From a virus, in the IMG/VR virus record IMGVR_UViG_3300030117_003194, positions 1 to 26,900 of that record: a stretch of 26,900 bases of DNA; one strand, given 5' to 3'. Below the pieces are notes generated by a model. It saw only the letters and a program-made list of their open reading frames with translations, did no database searches and was not told the origin of the DNA. The position numbers and the translations under genes were made by a program. Shown piece after piece: positions 3,389 to 23,000 of the stretch (the stretch's first letter is position 1; the number at the start of each line of letters is the position of its first letter).

Positions 3389-3658
3389 TTATTTACTCCA
3401 AACTCCTAGACCTTGATTCTCATAATTATCATTACTCATTATTTCTACTAAATCATCTCTTAATTCTTCCCAAATATTAAACTCTGCCATATATCTTAAA
3501 GCGTCTAAAATAGCACCATCAAAAGCAATAGAGCCGTCATTATGATAATGAACCAATATACCCCATTTTTCTTTAGAGTCATTTGAATTGCATTCTTTGT
3601 TAATATTATCTACCCACTTTTTAATTAATCTACTTACGTTTTTCTGTGTTTTATTCAT
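3389..3658 (-). CDS. Hypothetical protein, 89 aa
   Basis: An 89-residue protein beginning MNKTQKNVSRLIKKWVDNIN. A longer frame starts at an ATG at 3691, but the ATG at 3658 is preferred. It has an AGGAG sequence 8 bases upstream, and the promoter-like motif at 3698-3727 predicts transcription starting at about 3691, which would leave the longer form without a leader. The protein has a Lys-rich first helix, a strand pair (WGILVHYHNDGSIAFDG) and a helical acidic end. It ends in Trp-Ser-Lys, as does the next gene. No family is recognised. Confidence 0.75.
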   Translation of the reverse strand: MNKTQKNVSRLIKKWVDNINKECNSNDSKEKWGILVHYHNDGSIAFDGAILDALRYMAEFNIWEELRDDLVEIMSNDNYENQGLGVWSK

Positions 3659-3697
3659 TGTCTTTTCTCCTATTTTGTGTGTGTGTTTCATTTGTAG

Positions 3698-3727
3698 TAT
3701 ATACTATATAGTACAAGAAAAGTTCCA
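3698..3727 (-). promoter_or_regulatory. Leftward promoter-like motif, copy 3
   Basis: TGGAAC (3727-3722, minus strand) and TATATA (3703-3698) are 18 bases apart, with an AGTATATA core as in copy 2. It lies directly upstream of the 89-aa gene and fits the choice of the downstream ATG at 3658. Activity is inferred from recurrence and position. Confidence 0.5.
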
Positions 3728-3895
3728 TATTTTTATTATTTAATTATATTAATTGGTTCTATCTTATATTATTAAATAATGCCCCCCCTTTTATTTATTT
3801 TATTAGGTTTGTTGTATAACTTGTTGTCTACTCCTTTTAATATAAATTATAATAATAATAGATGATTTAATTATATCTGCTTTAAATGGGGCATT
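3728..3895. other. AT-rich non-coding spacer with a distant inverted repeat
   Basis: No ORF with a credible start was seen on either strand. AATGCCCC at 3778-3785 is an exact inverted copy of GGGGCATT at 3888-3895, with a 102-base spacer. The C-run plus TTTTATTTATTTTATT at 3782-3804 resembles the right arm and T-run of the hairpin at 3183-3213, but it lacks a nearby G-rich partner. The segment leads into the repeat array at 3902-4076. Confidence 0.4.
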
Positions 3896-3901
3896 CTATG
3901 T

Positions 3902-4076
3902 AAAATAGCTAGAACGCCTATATATAGCCATATTAACAGAAAAACCCCGTAAAACAGCTAAAATGCCTACGTGAACATCATTTTAATATATATTCTATCA
4001 AAAATAGCTGATGACCTACCTACGTGAACAGAATAATAATAAAATAATCTACTTACGTGAACTACCTACGTGAACA
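3902..4076. repeat. Degenerate ~50-bp repeats with CCTACGTGAACA boxes
   Basis: AAAATAGCT (3902), AAAACAGCT (3951) and AAAATAGCT (4001) recur at 49- and 50-base steps, each followed by a G/ACCTA-type core. The box CCTACGTGAACA occurs exactly at 3966-3977, 4019-4030 and 4065-4076, and as CTTACGTGAAC at 4052-4062. Box spacings are 53, 33 and 13 bases. The gap holds no gene. Iteron-like protein binding sites, at an origin or control region, are the simplest reading. Confidence 0.65.
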
Positions 4077-4103
4077 AACCCCTTAATAAAAAATAATAGA
4101 AAC

Positions 4104-4135
4104 AAAAAAAGAGCAGTTTATAGACTTGCTCAGGT
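4104..4135 (-). terminator. Intrinsic terminator, hairpin family copy 1
   Basis: On the minus strand GAGC-A-AGT-CTATAA-ACT-GCTC forms a 7-bp stem with one bulge, followed directly by a run of seven T (4110-4104). It lies 15 bases after the stop of the 71-aa gene. The 5' side reads ACCTGAGCAAG, shared with copies at 4399-4423 and 4919-4943. Confidence 0.8.
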
Positions 4136-4150
4136 CTTTTATTATTGTTA

Positions 4151-4366
4151 TTACATCTCATACGGGTTATTCATAGCAAAGTCTGCCATTTCTTTACTAG
4201 TAAACTCACATTTATCATTCTCTACAATCTCTTTTATTTGGAATGTTAGATTTTCTAAATATCCCCATACAATGGGTTCAATATATGGATTATCAGCATT
4301 TCTTGTAATTGAGGCTTGCATCTTTTCAATGATATCATAGATCTTATGTTTATCTTTTTTCTTCAT
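4151..4366 (-). CDS. Hypothetical protein, 71 aa
   Basis: A 71-residue protein that looks mostly helical. It starts with a lysine-rich helix (MKKKDKHKIYDIIEKMQASI) and has a central helix (WGYLENLTFQIKEIVEND) and a short acidic/aromatic end (EMADFAMNNPYEM). AAAGGAAATACT precedes the ATG. It sits alone between two hairpins of the same family, so it may be expressed as a separate unit or by read-through from the HNH gene. No family is recognised. Confidence 0.75.
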   Translation of the reverse strand: MKKKDKHKIYDIIEKMQASITRNADNPYIEPIVWGYLENLTFQIKEIVENDKCEFTSKEMADFAMNNPYEM

Positions 4367-4444: not shown

Positions 4445-4888
4445 TTAAGAGTGTGCTTCGTGGACTACTTTGTTATGTAGTTCCATATGGCAGTTAAAAC
4501 ATATTACAATACACTTTTTTATTTCTTTCATTATTGTATTCCATCCGTATCTTTTTATCATATTACCAACATTTTCTAATTTATTAGCATCGTGGTGATG
4601 AAAGTTTAAAACAGCAGTAGAAAAATGCTTTCCTCTTGTTTTCTTTGAGTAACCACATACGGCACAGCTACATTTAGACTTATATTCCTTTAATTTCTGA
4701 CCTTTCCCATACCTACCACTAGGTAAATTCTTTTTTCGCTCCCAGTGGCAAGGTTTACATTGGTGTCTGCGGTATGGATTACCATTAATATCTAATCCAT
4801 TTCTACCACCTCCACCACCTGATTTAGGAAATTCAGTAATAGGTTTAACAGCTAAGCATTCTGTGCAGCTTCTCTTATCTTCTAGCAT
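4445..4888 (-). CDS. HNH homing-type endonuclease
   Basis: A 147-residue predicted DNA-cleaving protein. The N-terminal half has two CxxC pairs (C8/C11 and C44/C47), a likely zinc finger for DNA contact. The C-terminal half is an HNH nuclease: C75-x-x-C78 zinc knuckle, a His-rich beta strand (NFHHHD, H97-H99) holding the catalytic histidine, a helix, then C130-x-x-C133 with H134 and H138. This matches the usual order of phage free-standing HNH enzymes, which nick or cut DNA and can spread their own genes. AAAGGA precedes the ATG. The gene is bracketed by two copies of one hairpin family, which suggests a movable module. The target is unknown. Confidence 0.9.
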   Translation of the reverse strand: MLEDKRSCTECLAVKPITEFPKSGGGGGRNGLDINGNPYRRHQCKPCHWERKKNLPSGRYGKGQKLKEYKSKCSCAVCGYSKKTRGKHFSTAVLNFHHHDANKLENVGNMIKRYGWNTIMKEIKKCIVICFNCHMELHNKVVHEAHS

Positions 4889-4953: not shown

Positions 4954-6015
4954 TTACTGGTTATTAGAGGCTATTGCAAAAGCTAGGTCAAACGCTCTAG
5001 TTTTCTGCATTGCTCTGGTTCCGATGATATGCGAGGCTTTTTCTCTGTCTTTAGCAGTAGCTTCACTATTATCAGCCCAGTCAGTAACAGATGAGAACGC
5101 TCTCCAGAGGTTTTTTCCTCTTTCCCGCTGTCCCTCTCCAAATAGCCAACTATCCATCAACTGAGTTAGCTGGTTATCGTGTCTGCCACTGTAACGAGGT
5201 TCTGTCTGAGTGGTCACACCGTTTACAACTCTGTTCCTTGGTTTCTTCTCTGCTTTTAATACAGAAGCGAAATAAGGCTGAGGGTTAGTGACTGGTGTAG
5301 ATGCTAGTAGCTCAACAGCATTATAATACTGCTTAAATAGCTCTTTAGCGTCTTTTATAGTGCGTTCATACTCTTTAAGTCTAACGTCTGCATATTTAGT
5401 ATGCTTCGCTGTAAATAAAGAAAATGAACGGCTATTTAGCATAAAGGTATTTAAGCAAATAGTATCTACTACTTTAGCAGTAGATTTAAATGCTATAGTA
5501 CCATCGTGCGAGGAACCAATCCAGAACTTCGGAACTAACTGGGTTCCCGGTATCTCTAGGGTTGGTAAATCATCGTGTTCTAATTCAATGAACATTAATT
5601 TACCGTCTTTGAGTTCACCGCTACCAGTTACTCCATAACCCAGTTGAGTTAGTTCATAGGCTACAGATTCCATCTGTTCAGATGTAATAATACTAACACT
5701 ATTTTTCTGAACATCAAGAACGCTGTTATTATCTATGTCAAACTCTGGTTTATCCGACCAGTCTGGAATAGCTTTCAACCGTCTATTAACTAGATGGTAA
5801 TCAGGTATCTGTCTTAATACCCCTTTGCTATTATAAGCATAGATATCTATAGCTTCCTGAGTATGTTCGAAGAGGTTAAGATTTTCCTCTTCGTTCCTTA
5901 AATCAGGAACTACATCAGGCACAACTTCAATAGCTGTTTCCTGAATAGGTGCTTGGTTATCTATTTCCATTTGTAACTGGTCAACCAGTTCGGTTATGTT
6001 TACATCATTATGCAT
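4954..6015 (-). CDS. DUF932-family phage protein
   Basis: A 353-residue protein. The core FWIGSSHDGTIAFKSTAKVV (about residues 164-183), followed by DTICLNTFML and an HTKYADVRLKEYERTIKDAKELF helix, matches the DUF932 family (PF06067) seen in phages and plasmids. The family has no settled biochemical role. The ATG at 6015 is preferred over one at 6027: GGAG lies 7 bases before it, while the upstream ATG lacks a ribosome-binding sequence. The first ~50 residues are acidic and low in complexity. As the first leftward gene beside the divergent region, with a ~195-base leader, it is probably expressed early; a link to replication or host takeover is inference. Confidence 0.85.
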   Translation of the reverse strand: MHNDVNITELVDQLQMEIDNQAPIQETAIEVVPDVVPDLRNEEENLNLFEHTQEAIDIYAYNSKGVLRQIPDYHLVNRRLKAIPDWSDKPEFDIDNNSVLDVQKNSVSIITSEQMESVAYELTQLGYGVTGSGELKDGKLMFIELEHDDLPTLEIPGTQLVPKFWIGSSHDGTIAFKSTAKVVDTICLNTFMLNSRSFSLFTAKHTKYADVRLKEYERTIKDAKELFKQYYNAVELLASTPVTNPQPYFASVLKAEKKPRNRVVNGVTTQTEPRYSGRHDNQLTQLMDSWLFGEGQRERGKNLWRAFSSVTDWADNSEATAKDREKASHIIGTRAMQKTRAFDLAFAIASNNQ

Positions 6016-6056
6016 AATGTTCTCCATTTATTAGGGTTATTGATTAACTATAAGAT

Positions 6057-6083
6057 ATACCCATTATCGAAGACTTAGGGTAT
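6057..6083 (-). promoter_or_regulatory. Small hairpin in the leader of the DUF932 gene
   Basis: ATACCC (6057-6062) pairs with GGGTAT (6078-6083) across 15 bases, about 40 bases before the gene start. A perfect minus-strand TATAAT (6106-6101) lies just upstream but has no good -35 partner, so a second leftward promoter is only possible. CACTCAG is repeated 50 bases apart in this leader (6117 and 6167 regions). Confidence 0.3.
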
Positions 6084-6217
6084 TTAATTATTTCAGGATT
6101 ATTATAGTGCTATTTTCACTCAGCTTAATATGGATACTTTCACCATTAACAAAAAGCCTTGCTCACACTCAGGAAGAGTACATTAATTATATAAAATTGT
6201 CAAAATAACTACTATAC

Positions 6218-6247
6218 TTAATACACCTACAATAAATAAAAGTTCCA
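6218..6247 (-). promoter_or_regulatory. Leftward promoter-like motif, copy 4
   Basis: TGGAAC (6247-6242, minus strand) and TATTAA (6223-6218) are separated by 18 bases, as in the other three copies. It is the natural promoter candidate for the DUF932 gene, with transcription predicted to start near 6211. TGGAACTTTT is shared with copies 1 and 3. Confidence 0.5.
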
Positions 6248-6304
6248 TTATATTTAAAATAAATAGAATTATTTTTATTTATTATGGCTGTAGTTGCGTG
6301 CTGC

Positions 6305-6397
6305 TTGCACCTAGTGCCAACCTGAACCAAACAAAAACGAATTTCTCAATCTACTTATTTCAACCTGAATTGCAAATGGGGGGAGTACCGTGCAAAT
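6305..6397. promoter_or_regulatory. Operator-like palindrome and paired short repeats in the divergent region
   Basis: TTGCACCTAGTGCCAA (6305-6320) is an interrupted palindrome with GCAC/GTGC arms. CAACCTGAA occurs at 6318-6326 and 6361-6369. TGCAAAT occurs at 6371-6377 and 6391-6397, exactly 20 bases apart, flanking a GGGGGG run. CCGTG and CACGG (6388-6392 and 6407-6411) could form a small stem. These look like protein-binding sites between diverging transcripts; no specific regulator can be named. Confidence 0.4.
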
Positions 6398-6410
6398 TAA
6401 AAGAGACACG

Positions 6411-6628
6411 GACATAATTATATAATTTTTTTAAAATTTTTTATAATTTTTTTTTGGTAATTTTTTGGATCTTTAGCTAAAAAAGGGGGAAAATGAGGTC
6501 GGGGTACTATTTTTTTAAAATTCTGGATAATATATATAATATATTAATATTATTAATATTACTAATATTATTAATATTATAATATTATAATATTATTAAT
6601 ATTATTTAATATTATTAATATATTAATA
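6411..6628. other. Curved AT-rich region, candidate replication origin
   Basis: Four T-tracts of 7, 6, 9 and 6 bases (6426-6432, 6437-6442, 6447-6455, 6461-6466) have centres 10.5 to 12.5 bases apart, the phasing that bends DNA. After a G-rich interval, 6527-6628 is all A/T except a C at 6562 and is built from repeated palindromic AATATT units (TATTAATATT). Such a pair is typical of an origin's bend and unwinding element. No ORF is present. Origin function is inferred; this could also be the divergent transcription control region only. Confidence 0.45.
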
Positions 6629-6632
6629 CTCT

Positions 6633-6638
6633 TATAAT
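6633..6638 (+). promoter_or_regulatory. Possible -10 box of a rightward promoter
   Basis: A perfect TATAAT lies about 77 bases before the first rightward gene, at the edge of the A/T tract. The region 17 bases upstream is all A/T without a clear -35 hexamer. Evidence is position and match only. Confidence 0.25.
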
Positions 6639-6714
6639 CCCAACCTAAATAAACGACTTAATTAATATTAAATAGTAAATTTTGTTTTTGCAACTATTAT
6701 TTTTAAATTAACAC

Positions 6715-11276: not shown

Positions 11277-13316
11277 ATGTCAAAAATAGACAAAGACCCA
11301 AGAGCACTATATAATGAAGAACTACATCGCCAATGGAGAGACGCTCGTTCTGACTGGGATACGGAGTCTCGTAAAGATATTGATTTCTACCTTGGTAATC
11401 ATTTTAGTGCAGAAGAGTCCGATGAGCTTTCCCAGAGAAATCAGGCAGATATACCGATGGACAGGATATCATCTGCTATTGAAAAATTTAAAGCAGTATT
11501 AACATCAAGAGCACCAGCATTTACAATCACTCCTAGAGAGGATTCAGATGTTCAGGTAGCTACATTGTGGAGAACGATCATTGGTTATATCTGGCAGATA
11601 TCTGATGGTGATTCTCAGATAAAACAAGCAATACATGATTATGCAACGACAGGTATTGGCTATCTATATGCTTATATTGATGGACAATCAGACTTCGGTA
11701 GAGGGGATGTAAAGTTCACTTATATTGACCCATTCAGGGTCTATACTTCGCCTTCATCCCGTGATCGCTGGTTTAGCGATTCTGACGGAATTATCTTGTC
11801 TACTATACTAACCGGTGAACAAGTGCTGAACCTCTACCCTGAATTAGGAGATCAAACAGATCCAGAAACTGGAGAGGTAATACCGGGTATTATCAATGAT
11901 ATATCTGGATTTAGTTATGACGATGAAGATTACCCTGCTTCTCAAAACAAAAACTCTATTACTGCTTTTACTCCATCTGATGTAAAAGATAAAGATTATT
12001 TTGAAGTTAAAAAGTATCAGATATTAGAAAGATTTTATAAAGTCAAAGTTCCATTTTATCGCTTGATTGATATTCAAAGTCAAGAAGAATCTATTTTGTC
12101 TCCTGATGAGTATATGGAATTTGCGGAGCAAAATGCAGAAGTATTAGAAAGTGGAGCTTTTCAAGTAGTTGAGGTATTGCAAAACAGGGTGAAGGTTTGT
12201 GCTACTCTTGGAGAAATAGTTTTATATGAATCTATTTTAAATACAGATGAATATCCAATAGTCCCGTTGCCAAATGTTTGGACAGGCACTCCATATCCCA
12301 AGAGCGATGTCTCCCGTGCTAGACCAATGCAGCGACTTTTAAATAAGCTGTGGTCATTGGCACTCTCTCATGCCCAAGCTTCAGCGGGACTAAAACTATT
12401 AGTTCCTCTTGGCAGTGTGGATGATGTAGGGCAGCTTGAAAAAGACTGGGCGAATCCAAACGCTGTAATAGAAGTGGACTCTTCTCAAGGGGAACCTCAT
12501 TATCCAGCACCTCAACCACTCGCTGGTGAGTTCTACAAACTGATACAACAATCAGAATTTTATATAGATTTTATTTTTGGTCTGCCAGAAATGATGCATG
12601 GCTTTGCTGAAAAAGCACCAGAGACTGTCAAAGGTACAGAAAGAATGATAGCATTAGGTACGGAAAGACCTAAGTCGAAGTTGAGAGATATTGAATTTAG
12701 TATGAATAGACTTGGTAAAATTATTTACAATCTCTCTAAGGGACACTATACTTTCCAAAAGATTTTTAGACTAGCACAACCAAATAATAACATAACAGAA
12801 GTTATGGCAAATTATTATACAGATGTTAGTGGTGCTGTATTGGATATGAAAAAAGATAGACATTTTTTAGACCAGCATGATATTCGGATTGAACCGGGTT
12901 CTACTATGCCTTCCAATAAGTGGGCAGAGTTGAATGTATATTTAGAAGCTTACCAAATGGGGATTGTGGATAAGTTTGAAGTATTAAAGAAGAACCCGGA
13001 AATATTTGACAAAGAAGGTATCTTGATGCGAACAGATGAAAAGCAGCAAATGATGCAACAAATTCAGGCTCTTGAAGAGCAATTAAAGACTTTGCAGGGT
13101 GACTTGCAAACAGCCCAGAGGGAATCTGTTAGTGACCGTAAGAAAGTGGAAGTGGAGAAATTCAAGTCCAGACTTGCTGAGGTTTCTTCAGATGCCAAAG
13201 CTGATCGTAGAGTTCAGCGTAATAAACTCGAAAACGAGGTGAAGCTCGAAGTGGAGAAATTAGCTAGGGATCTCGAAAGAGGTTCTAATGAAGTTGGTTC
13301 AACTCCACAGGATTAG
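11277..13316 (+). CDS. Portal protein
   Basis: A 679-residue protein that forms the ring at the head vertex through which DNA enters and leaves. Its length and order (between terminase and scaffold/capsid) fit. The N-terminal half has portal-like strings: IDFYLGNHFS, RISSAIEKFKAVLTSRAPAF and YIDPFRVYTSPSSRDRWFSD. A later segment, GLPEMMHGFAEKAPETVKGT, fits the family's middle/stem region. Residues ~588-672 are a long charged coiled coil (ALEEQLKTLQGDLQTAQRES), as in portals with an extended internal barrel. The portal family is recognised by context and pattern, not by alignment. It follows the previous gene by 10 bases. Confidence 0.9.
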   Translation: MSKIDKDPRALYNEELHRQWRDARSDWDTESRKDIDFYLGNHFSAEESDELSQRNQADIPMDRISSAIEKFKAVLTSRAPAFTITPREDSDVQVATLWRTIIGYIWQISDGDSQIKQAIHDYATTGIGYLYAYIDGQSDFGRGDVKFTYIDPFRVYTSPSSRDRWFSDSDGIILSTILTGEQVLNLYPELGDQTDPETGEVIPGIINDISGFSYDDEDYPASQNKNSITAFTPSDVKDKDYFEVKKYQILERFYKVKVPFYRLIDIQSQEESILSPDEYMEFAEQNAEVLESGAFQVVEVLQNRVKVCATLGEIVLYESILNTDEYPIVPLPNVWTGTPYPKSDVSRARPMQRLLNKLWSLALSHAQASAGLKLLVPLGSVDDVGQLEKDWANPNAVIEVDSSQGEPHYPAPQPLAGEFYKLIQQSEFYIDFIFGLPEMMHGFAEKAPETVKGTERMIALGTERPKSKLRDIEFSMNRLGKIIYNLSKGHYTFQKIFRLAQPNNNITEVMANYYTDVSGAVLDMKKDRHFLDQHDIRIEPGSTMPSNKWAELNVYLEAYQMGIVDKFEVLKKNPEIFDKEGILMRTDEKQQMMQQIQALEEQLKTLQGDLQTAQRESVSDRKKVEVEKFKSRLAEVSSDAKADRRVQRNKLENEVKLEVEKLARDLERGSNEVGSTPQD

Positions 13317-16340: not shown

Positions 16341-16440
16341 AGTTGGTAAGAAAAAATTTAAGTATACAAAAGCTGGGAAGAAAGCAGCAAAGAAGTATGC
16401 AAAAAAAGCTGGAAAGAAAGTAAGTTACGGTAAGAAATAA
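16333..16440 (+). CDS. Lysine-rich 35-aa DNA-binding-like peptide
   Basis: ATG at 16333, with GAGAGG 4 bases before it, opens a 35-codon ORF (MPKVGKKKFKYTKAGKKAAK, then KYAKKAGKKVSYGKK). Sixteen of 35 residues are lysine and there are no acidic residues. The start overlaps the zinc-ribbon stop, and the TAA overlaps the next ATG as TAATG, so all three genes are coupled. The repeated (A)KKxxKK spacing resembles histone-tail or protamine-like peptides that neutralise DNA. Packaged DNA condensation is a plausible role, not shown. Confidence 0.75.
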   Translation: MPKVGKKKFKYTKAGKKAAKKYAKKAGKKVSYGKK

Positions 16441-18842
16441 TGGCTACTTTTGAAGCACAGGTGGAAGGTTTAACAAGTTTATCTATTGATGGTAGTAGTG
16501 CACCAACACAAACTGAATTAACTCAGTTTTTAACAGATGGTGCTAAGGAAATATTAAATTCATTACCAAGGTCAAAGAAAATGTTATATAGTACCGCAAC
16601 CTCATTAAATGGTAGCAGTACAAATTTAACTATTGGTGGTTCTGAAATATTTAATGTCACTAGAGATGATGGTACAATTAATCAGCCGTGTAGAAAAATA
16701 TCTCCAGAATTAAGTGGAAGAGCAAGTGACTCAGGTGATATGATAGCAGCTACAACGACAGACCCAGTTTATTACATACAGAATAATATTCTCAGTGTGA
16801 TACCAGAACCTACAAATTCTAACAATGCTCAAGTTCAAACACTGGCTTATCCAGCGGTTGCCTATGGAGATTCTTCAATAACAAGATTTCCAGATGAAGC
16901 TGAGTATCTTGTTCCTTTATATGCTTCAGTAAAATCATTACAAAATCTACTGGGTAGTAGATCTTCTAACTCAGACATAACAACAGCATTAACAGCTATT
17001 AATACAGAATTAGATGAAACTATATCTATAGCGGATAATGTGCATACTGAGATTGCTCTTATTAATTCTTCTGCAGATAGTGCTTTAGTAGAAATAGGGT
17101 TGGCTAATGCAGAGGTAGATAAAATGGCAGCTGAGGGAGCATTAGATAATGCTGAGTTAGATAAAGCCACTTCGGAAATTGGTGAAGCCGCTACTCTTGT
17201 TGATAATGCAATAGATACTGCAACAGCTGCTATGACTACAGCTGCAGGTAGAATAGACACAGCGGTTCAGTTAGCAAATCTTGAATTTGATAAGTCTGAT
17301 ACAATTCTTGACTTGGGTGAGGCTGATACAGAGAATGATGTAAATACAGCATTAACAGCAATTAATACAGAGTTAGATGAGACACAGGCAGTTTGTGATA
17401 AAATAGATGCTGATTTAGTTCTTGCTAAAGCAGAAGTTGTTCTTGCTAAAACGGAAGCAGCTGAGATGGCTACACAGACTGATAATTCTGGAAATTTTGA
17501 GACAGCTTGCGATGCTATGGCGACTGAGCTTAATAAAGTTGATGAAATTATTTCATTGGCTAATGAAGAGTTTGACGAGGTAGCTACTCAAACTTCAGGT
17601 AGTAAGGATTCTCCAATCACAGATGCATTTACACAATTTGAATTAGTTGCAGCTCAATTAACATTGGGCGAAACCGACTCAGAGGGAGATGTGAATACAG
17701 CTATGGCACTTTTAAAAGCTGCTGTAGATCAGGCTGAAACTGCTGCTGATAAATTTGAATCAGCTGATGAATCTATATTTGGAGATGAAGAAACATTTTT
17801 AACAAGTAACTCACAATTAACTAGGGTGAAAAATGCTTTAGATGAAGCGGAGGATATTATTAATTCTAATGAACCGTCTGCTACTACAGATGCATATGGT
17901 GCACAAGCAGCTGAGGATGTTGAATTAGTTACATCAGCTTTAAATATAGCCCAGACAGAAATACGAAGAGCACAAGCTCATATTCAAGAGTGGGTAGCTA
18001 TTGGGGATATGAGAGTTAAAGAAGTCAATGTTGCTTTGTCTGAAGCTGATGGGTATGCAAAAGAAATTCAAACAAGATTGCAGCAAGCTTCAGCAAAAAG
18101 AGAAGAGGCTAAGTCAAGGATTTCTGCTGGTAGTGCCTATTTACAGGAAGCTCAAAGCACTATACAGGCTGGTAATGCTTATTTACAGGAAGCTCAGGCA
18201 AGAATAAGTCAAGCTCAGGGTTATGCTGCTGAGATAAATGCCAGAGGTTCTTTTACAAGTGCTAAATCAAAAGCAGTTCAGGGTTATATAAGTACAGCTC
18301 AAGCATATGTAGCTACAGCTAGGGGCTTTGGAGATGAGGTACAAGCTAAGATTCAGATAGCTCAGGGCTACGGAAATGAAATAAACATGAGGCTTGCTCA
18401 AGCATCTGCCAAAAGAGATGAATCAAAATCAAGAATAGAGCTTGGAAATGCTTATTTGTCAGAAGCTCGTTCAGCATCTGAGGAAGTTTCAGCATATGGA
18501 AATGAAGTTTCGGCTAGGGTTTCTCAAGCACAGGCTCAGATTTCAGTGGCTCAAAGTTATATATCTAATGGAGCTGGCTATTCAAGGGTTGCAGATACTT
18601 ATGGTAAGGTCGCTAGGGGATATATACAAGATGCAAGTACCTATCTTCAGGCAGCCTCTGCTTATGCATCAGCCGCTCAGGCATACGCTAATGAGATACA
18701 ATCAAAGATTCAAATAGCACAAGCTTATGGTAGTGAGGTGCAGATAAGATTATCAGTTGACTCTGCTCAATATGCTTGGTATGAAAAGCAACAAGCTAAG
18801 TTACAATCAGATTATGAAAAGGGATTACAGGCTATAAGATAA
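16440..18842 (+). CDS. Head-tail adaptor fused to a long Ala-rich helical repeat protein
   Basis: An 800-residue protein with two parts. Residues ~1-180 resemble a head-tail adaptor/tubular protein: an acidic helix (PTQTELTQFLTDGAKEIL), a beta region and FPDEAEYLVPLYASVKSLQ. Residues ~190-800 are a nearly continuous Ala/Glu/Gln/Ser helical repeat array; NTALTAINTELDET occurs twice (about residues 181 and 302), and the end is built from units such as AYLQEAQARISQAQGYA and IQIAQGYGNEI. Coiled-coil or helical-solenoid structure is likely, probably as a long extension from the neck. The ATG overlaps the upstream stop and lacks its own ribosome-binding sequence. Confidence 0.75.
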   Translation: MATFEAQVEGLTSLSIDGSSAPTQTELTQFLTDGAKEILNSLPRSKKMLYSTATSLNGSSTNLTIGGSEIFNVTRDDGTINQPCRKISPELSGRASDSGDMIAATTTDPVYYIQNNILSVIPEPTNSNNAQVQTLAYPAVAYGDSSITRFPDEAEYLVPLYASVKSLQNLLGSRSSNSDITTALTAINTELDETISIADNVHTEIALINSSADSALVEIGLANAEVDKMAAEGALDNAELDKATSEIGEAATLVDNAIDTATAAMTTAAGRIDTAVQLANLEFDKSDTILDLGEADTENDVNTALTAINTELDETQAVCDKIDADLVLAKAEVVLAKTEAAEMATQTDNSGNFETACDAMATELNKVDEIISLANEEFDEVATQTSGSKDSPITDAFTQFELVAAQLTLGETDSEGDVNTAMALLKAAVDQAETAADKFESADESIFGDEETFLTSNSQLTRVKNALDEAEDIINSNEPSATTDAYGAQAAEDVELVTSALNIAQTEIRRAQAHIQEWVAIGDMRVKEVNVALSEADGYAKEIQTRLQQASAKREEAKSRISAGSAYLQEAQSTIQAGNAYLQEAQARISQAQGYAAEINARGSFTSAKSKAVQGYISTAQAYVATARGFGDEVQAKIQIAQGYGNEINMRLAQASAKRDESKSRIELGNAYLSEARSASEEVSAYGNEVSARVSQAQAQISVAQSYISNGAGYSRVADTYGKVARGYIQDASTYLQAASAYASAAQAYANEIQSKIQIAQAYGSEVQIRLSVDSAQYAWYEKQQAKLQSDYEKGLQAIR

Positions 18843-19690: not shown

Positions 19691-20026
19691 ATGGCAAATA
19701 TACAAAAATTTAGAGCCCACGAATCTTTAAATATAGAATCAGCTGGAGACTGGCAAGTTCAATCAGCTGTAACTGCAGATGCAGATGGAGTAGCGGTTGA
19801 TGTTACTTCATACCACCAAATACACTTACTAACAGATAAAGATATTTATTTTACATTTAATACAACAGGAACAGATTCTGATATAAATACTTCTAATGAT
19901 CTTTATTTAAAAGGTGGGGATACAATTTATACTTTAAAAGTACCTAGAGGTTTAGGTAATGCAGTTCACTTAATAATGGAAAGAAAAGAAAGTTCTGATG
20001 CTACAGTCAGAATTATTCTAGCTTAG
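19691..20026 (+). CDS. Small beta-rich structural-like protein, 111 aa
   Basis: A 111-residue protein with an AGGAG ribosome-binding sequence. It is beta-rich: ESAGDWQVQSAVTADADGVA, HQIHLLTDKDIYFTFNTTGT, KGGDTIYTLKVPRGLGNAVH, and an ATVRIIL end. It begins right before the giant tail fibre and ends 8 bases before it. This is the usual place for a fibre-attachment or small tail protein. No family is recognised with confidence. Confidence 0.65.
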   Translation: MANIQKFRAHESLNIESAGDWQVQSAVTADADGVAVDVTSYHQIHLLTDKDIYFTFNTTGTDSDINTSNDLYLKGGDTIYTLKVPRGLGNAVHLIMERKESSDATVRIILA

Positions 20027-20034
20027 GAGGTTAT

Positions 20035-23000
20035 ATGGCTTTTATTACAACAACAGCTGCCAGTATAGCCTCAGGTGGAACCATTAATGGTGACATTACT
20101 ATCACAGGTGATTTAAAAGTAGAAGGTGGTGGCTCATTTACATACGATGAGATAATTGAAGGCTCATCAACTTTTACATCGGGTAATGATGCGAATGGAA
20201 CAATAGCAGTTTTATCAGGGAATGCATCTCAGTATTCAAAAATATTTATTGGAACTGATAGTGGTAAAGCGACTATTGGAGTGTCAGGAGCAACTGATAC
20301 TTTTTTTACTGGTACGGCTCAAGATGATTTAGTTGTAAGAGCAGATGCTGATAGTAGAAAAATTCATTTAGGAGTTGGAACTAGCGGTACTGCTGAATTA
20401 GTAATTGCAAATAATGCTATTGGTATCGGAGCTGCCTCACCCAGTAGTTCTCTTCATATTTCTAATGCATCTAGCAATGGGCAAGTTGCTTTAATTATAG
20501 ACCAAAACAACACTTCAAATAAAGCATTAGAAATAGATAGTGAACAAACAAGTGGGAATATATTTCATATTAACAATCCTCAAATTACAACAGGAACTGC
20601 AATATCTGTAGAAGAAGGCAATGCTATGACAACTGGTAGGTTGTTATTTATGAAAAGCAATTCATCTGATACAAGTACAAGAAATTTAGCTGAGATTCAT
20701 AATACTCATGCATCTGCTAGTGGTGTAAATGTATTGAAAATTACTAATAACAGTAGTAATACTAACAATGCAACTGGGTGGATGTTAGACCTTCATAGTA
20801 CATACGATAGTGGGGCAGATGAACAAAATGGTAAAGCCATTAGAATTGTTAAGAATGATGGTCAAGCTGTTGCAAGTGGAGACATATTAGGTTCTATTGC
20901 ATTTGCAGGTGCAGAAGATTCTGGTAACTCTATTCAAACTGGAGCAAGAATTGATGCTGTTTCGGAAGGTACTTGGGGATACACAAGCAATCCAGCCTCA
21001 TTAGTTTTCTTAACTACAAGTGGAAATGCATCTCAAAGTGAAAAAATGCGAATTGATTCATCAGGTAATGTTGGTATAGGAGGAACGCCTAGTGTACCGC
21101 TTCACATTTCAACAACAAATACAAATCCACTTTTATTAGAAAACACTACGCAAGATGCTAGTGGCGGTGCAATATTAAATAAAATTTCTTTCAAACTCAA
21201 TTCTGTATTAAATACAAGCTATGAGCATGGATCTATTGGTTACTATGCTGGTGAAGCATGGGATGATACAAAATTTTATCAAACAATACTAAATGGAGGA
21301 TCTGGGCAAGTTATAGCTGAAAATCTTCGTGGTAATACTTGGAAATGGTATACTGGTGGAACTTTAAGAATGGTTCTTGATACCAACTCTCGCATCAGTC
21401 TTAGTAATAATGATAGTGGTACAGAGAATACAGTTTTTGGATATACGGCAGGGTCAAGTATTGATGCAGGAAGTAATTACAATGTTTATATAGGACATCA
21501 AACTGCTGCAGGTGGTACTCATGATGATGCAGTAATGAATACAGCAGTTGGGTATAGGTCAATGTATCCTTTGACATCAGGAGATTATAATACAGCACTT
21601 GGTGCGGATTCTTTAAGGTCAATTACAAGTGGTGGTAACAATATCGCAATCGGGTCATCTGCTGGTTATGCGATTACTACTGCTTCATTTAATGTTGCGA
21701 TTGGTGCGAATGCTTTAAAAGCAGAAGATACAGGTGGTGCTGGTAGTATAGCAATAGGGTACAATTCATTAACGGCTCAAAATGGTAATGGTAAAAATAT
21801 TGCTATTGGTTATCAAGCAGCTTTTAGAAATACAACTGGTGAAAAGAATGTAATAATTGGATATGAGGCAGGACTTGGAGCTGTAAGTGCAAATTGGACT
21901 AAAAATATTGCTATAGGTCATCAGGCATTATACAGTTTACAGACGGATGCTGACAACAATGTAGCGATTGGAGATAGTGCTGGATTTAATATCACTACTG
22001 GTGATAATAATATGTTTATTGGGGGTGAATCAGGAGATGCAATTACTTCAGGTTCAAATAATGTTGCCGTTGGTAAAAATGCATTAAGTACAGCAACAAC
22101 TGCTTTAAATAATGTGTTTATTGGGAAAAGTGCTGGTGAAGATATATCAGCGAGTGTAGCATTAAATGGTGTTGTAGCTATAGGATGGGAAGCGTTTAAA
22201 GGTAGTGGTTCTACTACTACAGATGCAGAAGGAACAGTAGTTATAGGGTATGAAGCAGGAAAATCACTTACTGCAGCTGAAAAAAATACACTTGTTGGGT
22301 ATCAAACAGGAAAGGCTCTCACTGGCGGTGGTCATAATACTGCATTTGGTGCTCAAGCCCTTGATGAATTAACTACTGGCACATTTAATACTGCTTTAGG
22401 TAGACAAGCATTAGGTTCATTAGATGGGGGAGAATCAGGTAATACTGCAGTTGGTTACCAAGCATTATCTAACTTAGATGGTGTTGATGGTCAAACAGCT
22501 ATGGGATATAAGGCATTAACTGGATGTACTACAGGAAGTGCTAATCTTGCTATCGGCTGGGAAGCTATGAAAACCAATACAACTGGCGTAAGAAACATTG
22601 CTATTGGTTATGCTTCAATGAATGATACAGACGCTGGAAGTACTTCACTTGGCTCTTCAGATAACATTTTCATTGGTGCTGAATCTGGTGGTGGTACATG
22701 GGCTGATGCAGCGTCTAATGGCAATGTCGGCATTGGTAGTTATTCTATGGACTCAGCTTTAGATGGGGCATTATACAATACAGCAGTAGGTGCTTATTCT
22801 GCGAGTGCTATAACTACGGCTGATAATGTTGTAGCTATTGGAAATAGTGCAGCTTATACCTTAACAACTGCTTCAAATAGTATAGCTATTGGTACGAATG
22901 CTATGAAAACTCATCTAACTGGTGAAAGAAATATGGCTATTGGTACAAATGCAATGCAAGATACTGATGCTGGTTCAAATGCTAATAGTTCATACGATAA

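Follow-up and report, generated by a model that had tools for sequence, protein, structure and literature searches.

A conserved single-copy array of direct repeats in an uncultured marine phage group is a candidate replication origin or control site

The locus and its repeat array

The window, as we call the whole 26.9-kb IMG/VR phage sequence analysed here, is probably an incomplete genome; its relatives reach 38-45 kb. A block of leftward early genes is separated from a small leftward ORF, an HNH endonuclease gene and a DUF932 gene by a 459-bp gap (3692-4150), in which no leftward-strand ORF longer than 31 aa occurs except those of chance length. The gap holds an array of four boxes in one orientation, flanked by an A+T-rich stretch that is a candidate unwinding region and by a terminator-like hairpin whose arrangement is similar in relatives L015, L034, L059 and L080 (Table 1).

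Table 1. Features of the array locus and of the neighbouring divergent gap in the window
Feature	Position	Strand	Basis
First early gene to the left of the array; not assigned to a family	3389..3691	-	ORF list, family searches
A+T-rich stretch adjoining the array, GC 0.21 (79% A+T)	3692..3901		composition; record overall GC 0.366
ECF-sigma-like promoter GGAAC-N16-AGTATA of the leftward early operon	3700..3726	-	promoter scan
AAAATAGCT and putative decayed box (CCTATATATAGC): first, degenerate unit	3902..3929	+	sequence; decay inferred
AAAACAGCT, 5' part of the unit with box 1	3951..3959	+	word search
Box 1, (ATG)CCTACGTGAACA	3966..3977	+	sequence; conserved in G001
TAATATATATT after box 1: family-wide box-following A+T element, weak in this phage	3984..3994	+	family test
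AAAATAGCT, 5' part of the unit with box 2	4001..4009	+	word search
Box 2, (CTA)CCTACGTGAACA	4019..4030	+	sequence
Box 3, (CTA)CTTACGTGAACT	4052..4063	+	sequence
Box 4, (CTA)CCTACGTGAACA, 13 bp after box 3	4065..4076	+	sequence
Intrinsic-terminator-like hairpin GAGCAAGTC...TGCTC with T tract, of the upstream leftward gene; bounds the array	4100..4131	-	sequence
71-aa ORF; another ORF in its place in G001, array kept	4151..4366	-	comparison with G001
HNH endonuclease	4445..4888	-	family search
DUF932/TIGR03299-like protein, the array's usual right-hand neighbour	4954..6027	-	family searches, relatives
Conserved non-coding element (TTCAACC..GGGGGG..GACACGGACATA) and A+T tract, divergent gap	6333..6628		comparison of relatives

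The repeat array is real. An earlier note on this DNA had reported the box words, their spacings of 53, 33 and 13 bp and their location in a gene-free gap, all of which are confirmed by the sequence. Rather than being scattered through the genome, the word TACGTGAAC is confined to the array, where its four copies (3968, 4021, 4054 and 4067), the only ones in the 26.9-kb record, all lie on the plus strand; with up to two mismatches to the box allowed, the sole match outside the array is one minus-strand site at 11549. None of 100 shuffles yielded five such matches, and when the gap was dinucleotide-shuffled 2000 times, G+C-containing 9-mers never occurred as often as three times, compared with the four copies observed. 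The second word of the array, AAAAYAGCT, has its only copies in the record at 3902, 3951 and 4001. A count of three is within what chance produces (22 of 100 shuffles), and apart from the window, the sister contig G001 is the only one in which the word was noticed. In the unit at 3902, CCTATATATAGC stands where a box would be expected, and this unit appears to be a decayed one.

Distribution of the array and form of its boxes

Hundreds of viral contigs encode relatives of the large terminase, whereas bacterial genomes yielded none. Among GenBank phages, near and distant DNA searches and tblastn searches with the portal and DUF932 proteins gave no match, and the terminase matched at only ~25%. 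Approximately 40 IMG/VR contigs, which share the terminase or the exonuclease, carry one array each, composed of two to eight same-orientation boxes and located between the leftward early block and DUF932 or DUF932's replacement. A de novo repeat scan of the terminase relatives, in which the box sequence was not used as a query, recovered arrays on one strand with an ACGTG core at the corresponding position in many contigs that reach the locus. Examples of the array words are CCTACGTGAAC in L013, CTACCTACGTGCACA in G003, TTACGTGAATT in G004 and L034, TACGTGCATA in G016 and CGTGAACAAA in L023. A second set of contigs, fetched with the exonuclease, added ~20 further arrays, and more distant box forms are present in L029 (TACGTACATGATTCA) and in L050, L053, L083 and L189 (near CCTCCGTAAAGTT). 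A scan with the type-E box pattern returned mostly chance matches, the real ones being those in L199, L239, L240, L248, L261, L217 and L050. Each of the five longest assembled contigs (38-43 kb) contains a single array; in L033 (57 kb) none was seen by eye. A search with DUF932 identified one close relative, L005/G001 (DUF932 98% identical), which retains all four boxes at identical spacing even though the adjacent 71-aa ORF has been replaced, and across eight close pairs the boxes are 96.9% identical and the DNA between them 85%. A large group of uncultured marine phages has retained the array as a single copy at a constant location.

The boxes have the consensus CTACYTACGTGMAYA and align as CTAC-Y-TACGTG-M-A-Y-A. 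A TATA element, often reading TATAAT, follows 2-8 nt 3' of the box in 45 of 79 boxes, an excess over the rotated-tail null (13.5 +/- 3.1, maximum 26) that indicates a bipartite unit of box and TATA. Box spacings range from 12 to 109 bp and show no helical phase over 70 spacings in 24 arrays (Rayleigh p ~0.43), so that helical phasing, which the earlier note had read from the 20-bp steps between spacings in the window, is rejected as a rule. The array does not resemble a CRISPR array, since its boxes are 12-15 bp long and irregularly spaced and no cas operon was found, and Rfam and tRNA searches gave no match. A -10-like TATA(AT) that commonly follows the box at a near-constant distance could instead mean that the array is a set of tandem promoters or a non-coding RNA and does not consist of iterons bound by protein. 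We regard this as highly improbable, given that no -35 element was seen 16-18 bp away, that the box-to-TATA spacing does vary, that transcription would run antisense into the terminator or DUF932, and that Rfam holds no match.

Replication and transcription control as readings of the array

The proteins of two relatives, scanned against Pfam (complete table) and PHROG (25 of 56 families listed), include a Cas4/RecB-like exonuclease, a RusA-type Holliday resolvase, endonuclease VII, HNH and PDDEXK proteins and GP88; these scans detected no polymerase, helicase or primase, and neither an integrase nor a repressor is among the families found. Searches of 11 contigs, the majority of them close to complete length, found no member of the DnaB (PF03796), lambda-O (PF04492) or Rep_3 (PF01051) families. 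A conserved 157-aa protein with a -PF tail has a predicted structure that resembles the OB-fold protein PrgE and SSBs; its family is unannotated (G003 19961-20437; G010, oriented, 37630-38106), and a 70-aa family is the second small conserved family with a -PF end. As no polymerase, helicase or initiator is recognisable, the phage probably uses the host replisome, which would need a place to be loaded.

We tentatively propose, at close to even confidence, that the array serves as an iteron-type origin or as a site of replication control. A protein would bind in several copies to the 13-15-bp boxes, which share one orientation, and the resulting nucleoprotein complex would initiate replication of the phage DNA or regulate its initiation. 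The duplex would open at the A+T/TATA steps beside the boxes and in the 79% A+T stretch to their left, and the host replisome, sometimes with host DnaA, would in turn be loaded at the opened site. Protein binding, unwinding and initiation at the array are what we infer from several properties that moderately, and only moderately, favour an origin: a single array per genome, uniform orientation, conservation, the coupled A+T elements and the perfect DnaA boxes TTATCCACA inside the arrays of L013 (two), L163 (two) and L165 (three). Together with the borrowing of a host replisome, they make a replication or control site the best-supported class; the binding-site or origin interpretation of the earlier note stands to that extent, while its helical spacing does not.

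Like known iteron origins, the array has at least three same-orientation direct repeats in one place and an adjacent region that is A+T-rich by composition (GC 0.21 versus 0.366). A cognate initiator gene of known family was not found in 11 contigs or in the Pfam and PHROG scans of two relatives, and since such initiators were sought and not found we do not class the array with lambda-O or Rep_3 origins. The lambda origin, in which iterons and an A+T-rich tract operate with the host replisome, offers a precedent (PMC7466680). Its four O-protein iterons are likewise direct repeats beside A+T-rich DNA, and it depends likewise on host helicase and polymerase; in contrast, the array described here lies outside any initiator gene, in contigs that lack a lambda-O homolog (11 contigs), and has its own box sequence, free spacing, TATA on most boxes and swaps between near-identical phages. 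The R6K gamma origin, read by the Rep_3 initiator pi, also consists of same-orientation repeats, and the sequence of its iteron, TTAGTACGTGAAACA, was confirmed in IncX-type plasmid records. A TACGTGAA core is common to this iteron and to CTACCTACGTGAACA and CTAGTTACGTGAATT, a 10-bp likeness that may be due to chance; unlike the array, R6K units are regular 22-mers, and no Rep_3 protein was found in the 11 contigs. P4-type iterons have the sequence GGTGAACAG; a likeness to them was set aside, as no supporting paper was found.

The DnaA-box clusters of oriC are likewise gathered in one orientation in A+T-rich DNA, and TTATCCACA is intermingled with the boxes of L013, L163 and L165, where TTWTNCACA clusters are present. 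The window differs in that its boxes do not fit TTWTNCACA and its array gap contains no such DnaA box or cluster. DnaA-type boxes overall number 4.9 per 10 kb in array gaps versus 1.2 elsewhere. Strand composition gave a mixed picture: GC3 skew of DUF932 is -0.002 on the minus strand versus +0.127 on the plus strand, a difference that four-fold sites do not show; a comparison of HNH genes is suggestive in one lineage only, and no switch in skew is seen among the plus-strand genes opposite the array.

The main rival to a replication function arises because the array lies close to a promoter: the boxes may act as operators or enhancers through which a regulator controls the leftward early operon. 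A promoter-like GGAACTTT(T) site is present on the minus strand ~30-240 bp from the array in all nine contigs checked, a terminator bounds the other side, and the TATA element often reads as TATAAT. Proximity to a promoter is expected, however, for any gap upstream of a leftward gene, and the boxes are confined to one gap, with a single array per contig, although similar promoters precede other early genes and a regulon operator would recur at several of them. Their number (2-8) and free spacing, the lack of conservation of the operon's first gene and the absence of a repressor family among the families found also count against transcription control, which we consider unlikely.

The early promoters resemble ECF-sigma promoters. 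GGAACTTT is followed at exactly 16 nt by (C/A)GTAT/CGTT in 27 of 36 spacer matches, while the reversed control gave none. GGAAC-N16-(C/A)GTAT sites precede leftward early genes on the minus strand of the window (3726, 1931 and 6246) and occur also in G003, G005, G010, G014, G016, G001, G004 and G006. The EcfG promoter of alphaproteobacteria is GGAAC-N16-CGTT (PMC7083833), and the phage sites match it except that their -10 is usually CGTA or AGTA, which suggests that early transcription may be carried out by a host ECF sigma factor or a phage-encoded look-alike.

Exchange of the array, its candidate readers and the divergent gap

Box sequences are specific to lineages and have moved between phages that are otherwise almost identical (L189 versus G010; L050 versus L067). 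In these same pairs the array and the DUF932 gene have been exchanged between phages that are 97-99% identical around the array, an exchange that reads as recombinational swapping of a cis-element. Such swaps argue against specific reading of the boxes by the terminase subunits, DUF932, the exonuclease, the SSB or other conserved early proteins. DUF932 was rejected on two grounds: the proteins of L083 and L117 are 93% identical while their box types differ, and the boxes of L061/L063 and L067/L069 are near-identical while their DUF932 genes differ in type and strand. The exonuclease, SSB, 141-146-aa protein, HNH and 113-aa nuclease are 97-100% identical across box types (L189/G010) and were likewise rejected; a fold prediction for the 141-aa protein was of low confidence and found no PDB match. 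What does differ between L189 and G010 is a 150-aa nuclease-like protein and several small proteins without assigned function; the replaced proteins include some of 103, 93 and 77 aa. The exchange separates the cis-element from most candidate readers, leaving as candidates these few replaced small genes, a late-region protein or a host protein. A specific initiator encoded by the phage is not easily reconciled with a swap in which no reader has obviously moved along with the array.

A more specific version of the origin reading, which we hold to be rather doubtful, is that the array of boxes and TATA elements is a swappable origin cassette, exchanged between 97-99% identical phages and read by an unrecognised small phage or host protein, with no known initiator, helicase loader or helicase. 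If true, it would represent a novel mode of host-replisome recruitment by a phage and would make origin specificity exchangeable, perhaps as an incompatibility or exclusion trait. More generally, the array provides an origin candidate for an abundant marine phage group that has no close isolate or identifiable replication initiator.

The same exchanges bear on a packaging function, in which the array would be a pac site read by the small terminase. A P22-type portal and a circular map (141-bp end overlap, G010) fit headful packaging, and lambda cosB is also an array; cosB and pac arrays resemble the one described here in being several protein-binding repeats on a phage genome. Here, however, the array is uncoupled from terminase sequence and does not co-vary with the small terminase. 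L048 and L067 (with L069, of the GTGCACA type) and L050 and L053 (of the CCTCCGTAAAGTT type) have small terminases that are 99.6% identical and boxes that are completely different (TGCGTGCACA versus TCCTCCGTAAAGTTG), and across these types the large terminase is 96-99% identical (99.4% for L048, 96% for L067). A terminase-read pac or cos site is therefore largely refuted and scarcely credible. In G010, the 141 bp shared by the contig ends probably reflect the assembler's k-mer overlap and suggest that the 42.7-kb genome is circular or circularly permuted.

Finally, the origin may lie instead in the divergent gap (6028-6714), with the array as an accessory for partition, anchoring or titration of a host protein. 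There, the window and ten relatives (11 of the 12 contigs examined) contain a TTCAACC...GGGGGG...ACACGCACATACT element followed by an A+T tract, and L168, L173 and L177 have DnaA-type boxes in this gap instead of in the array. However, the GGGGGG element lies directly upstream of the small terminase region, which makes a packaging site equally natural; the array gap itself has DnaA boxes in other lineages, and no ParA/ParB or partition family is among the matches. The element is a candidate for a rival origin or a packaging site, and the arrangement as a whole, with an accessory array, seems improbable. In distant relatives a different array, ACCCTAATA(C/G)GG at ~14-bp spacing, follows the GGGGGG element (L180 19260-19400, L184 17030-17160 and L190 17230-17350, loci reversed), and these ACCCTAATA arrays, located in the divergent gap, were excluded from the same-element set. 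In L182, a more distant relative, approximately six DnaA-box-like TGTGKATAAC words adjoin a GGAACTTTT promoter (16360-16540, locus reversed).
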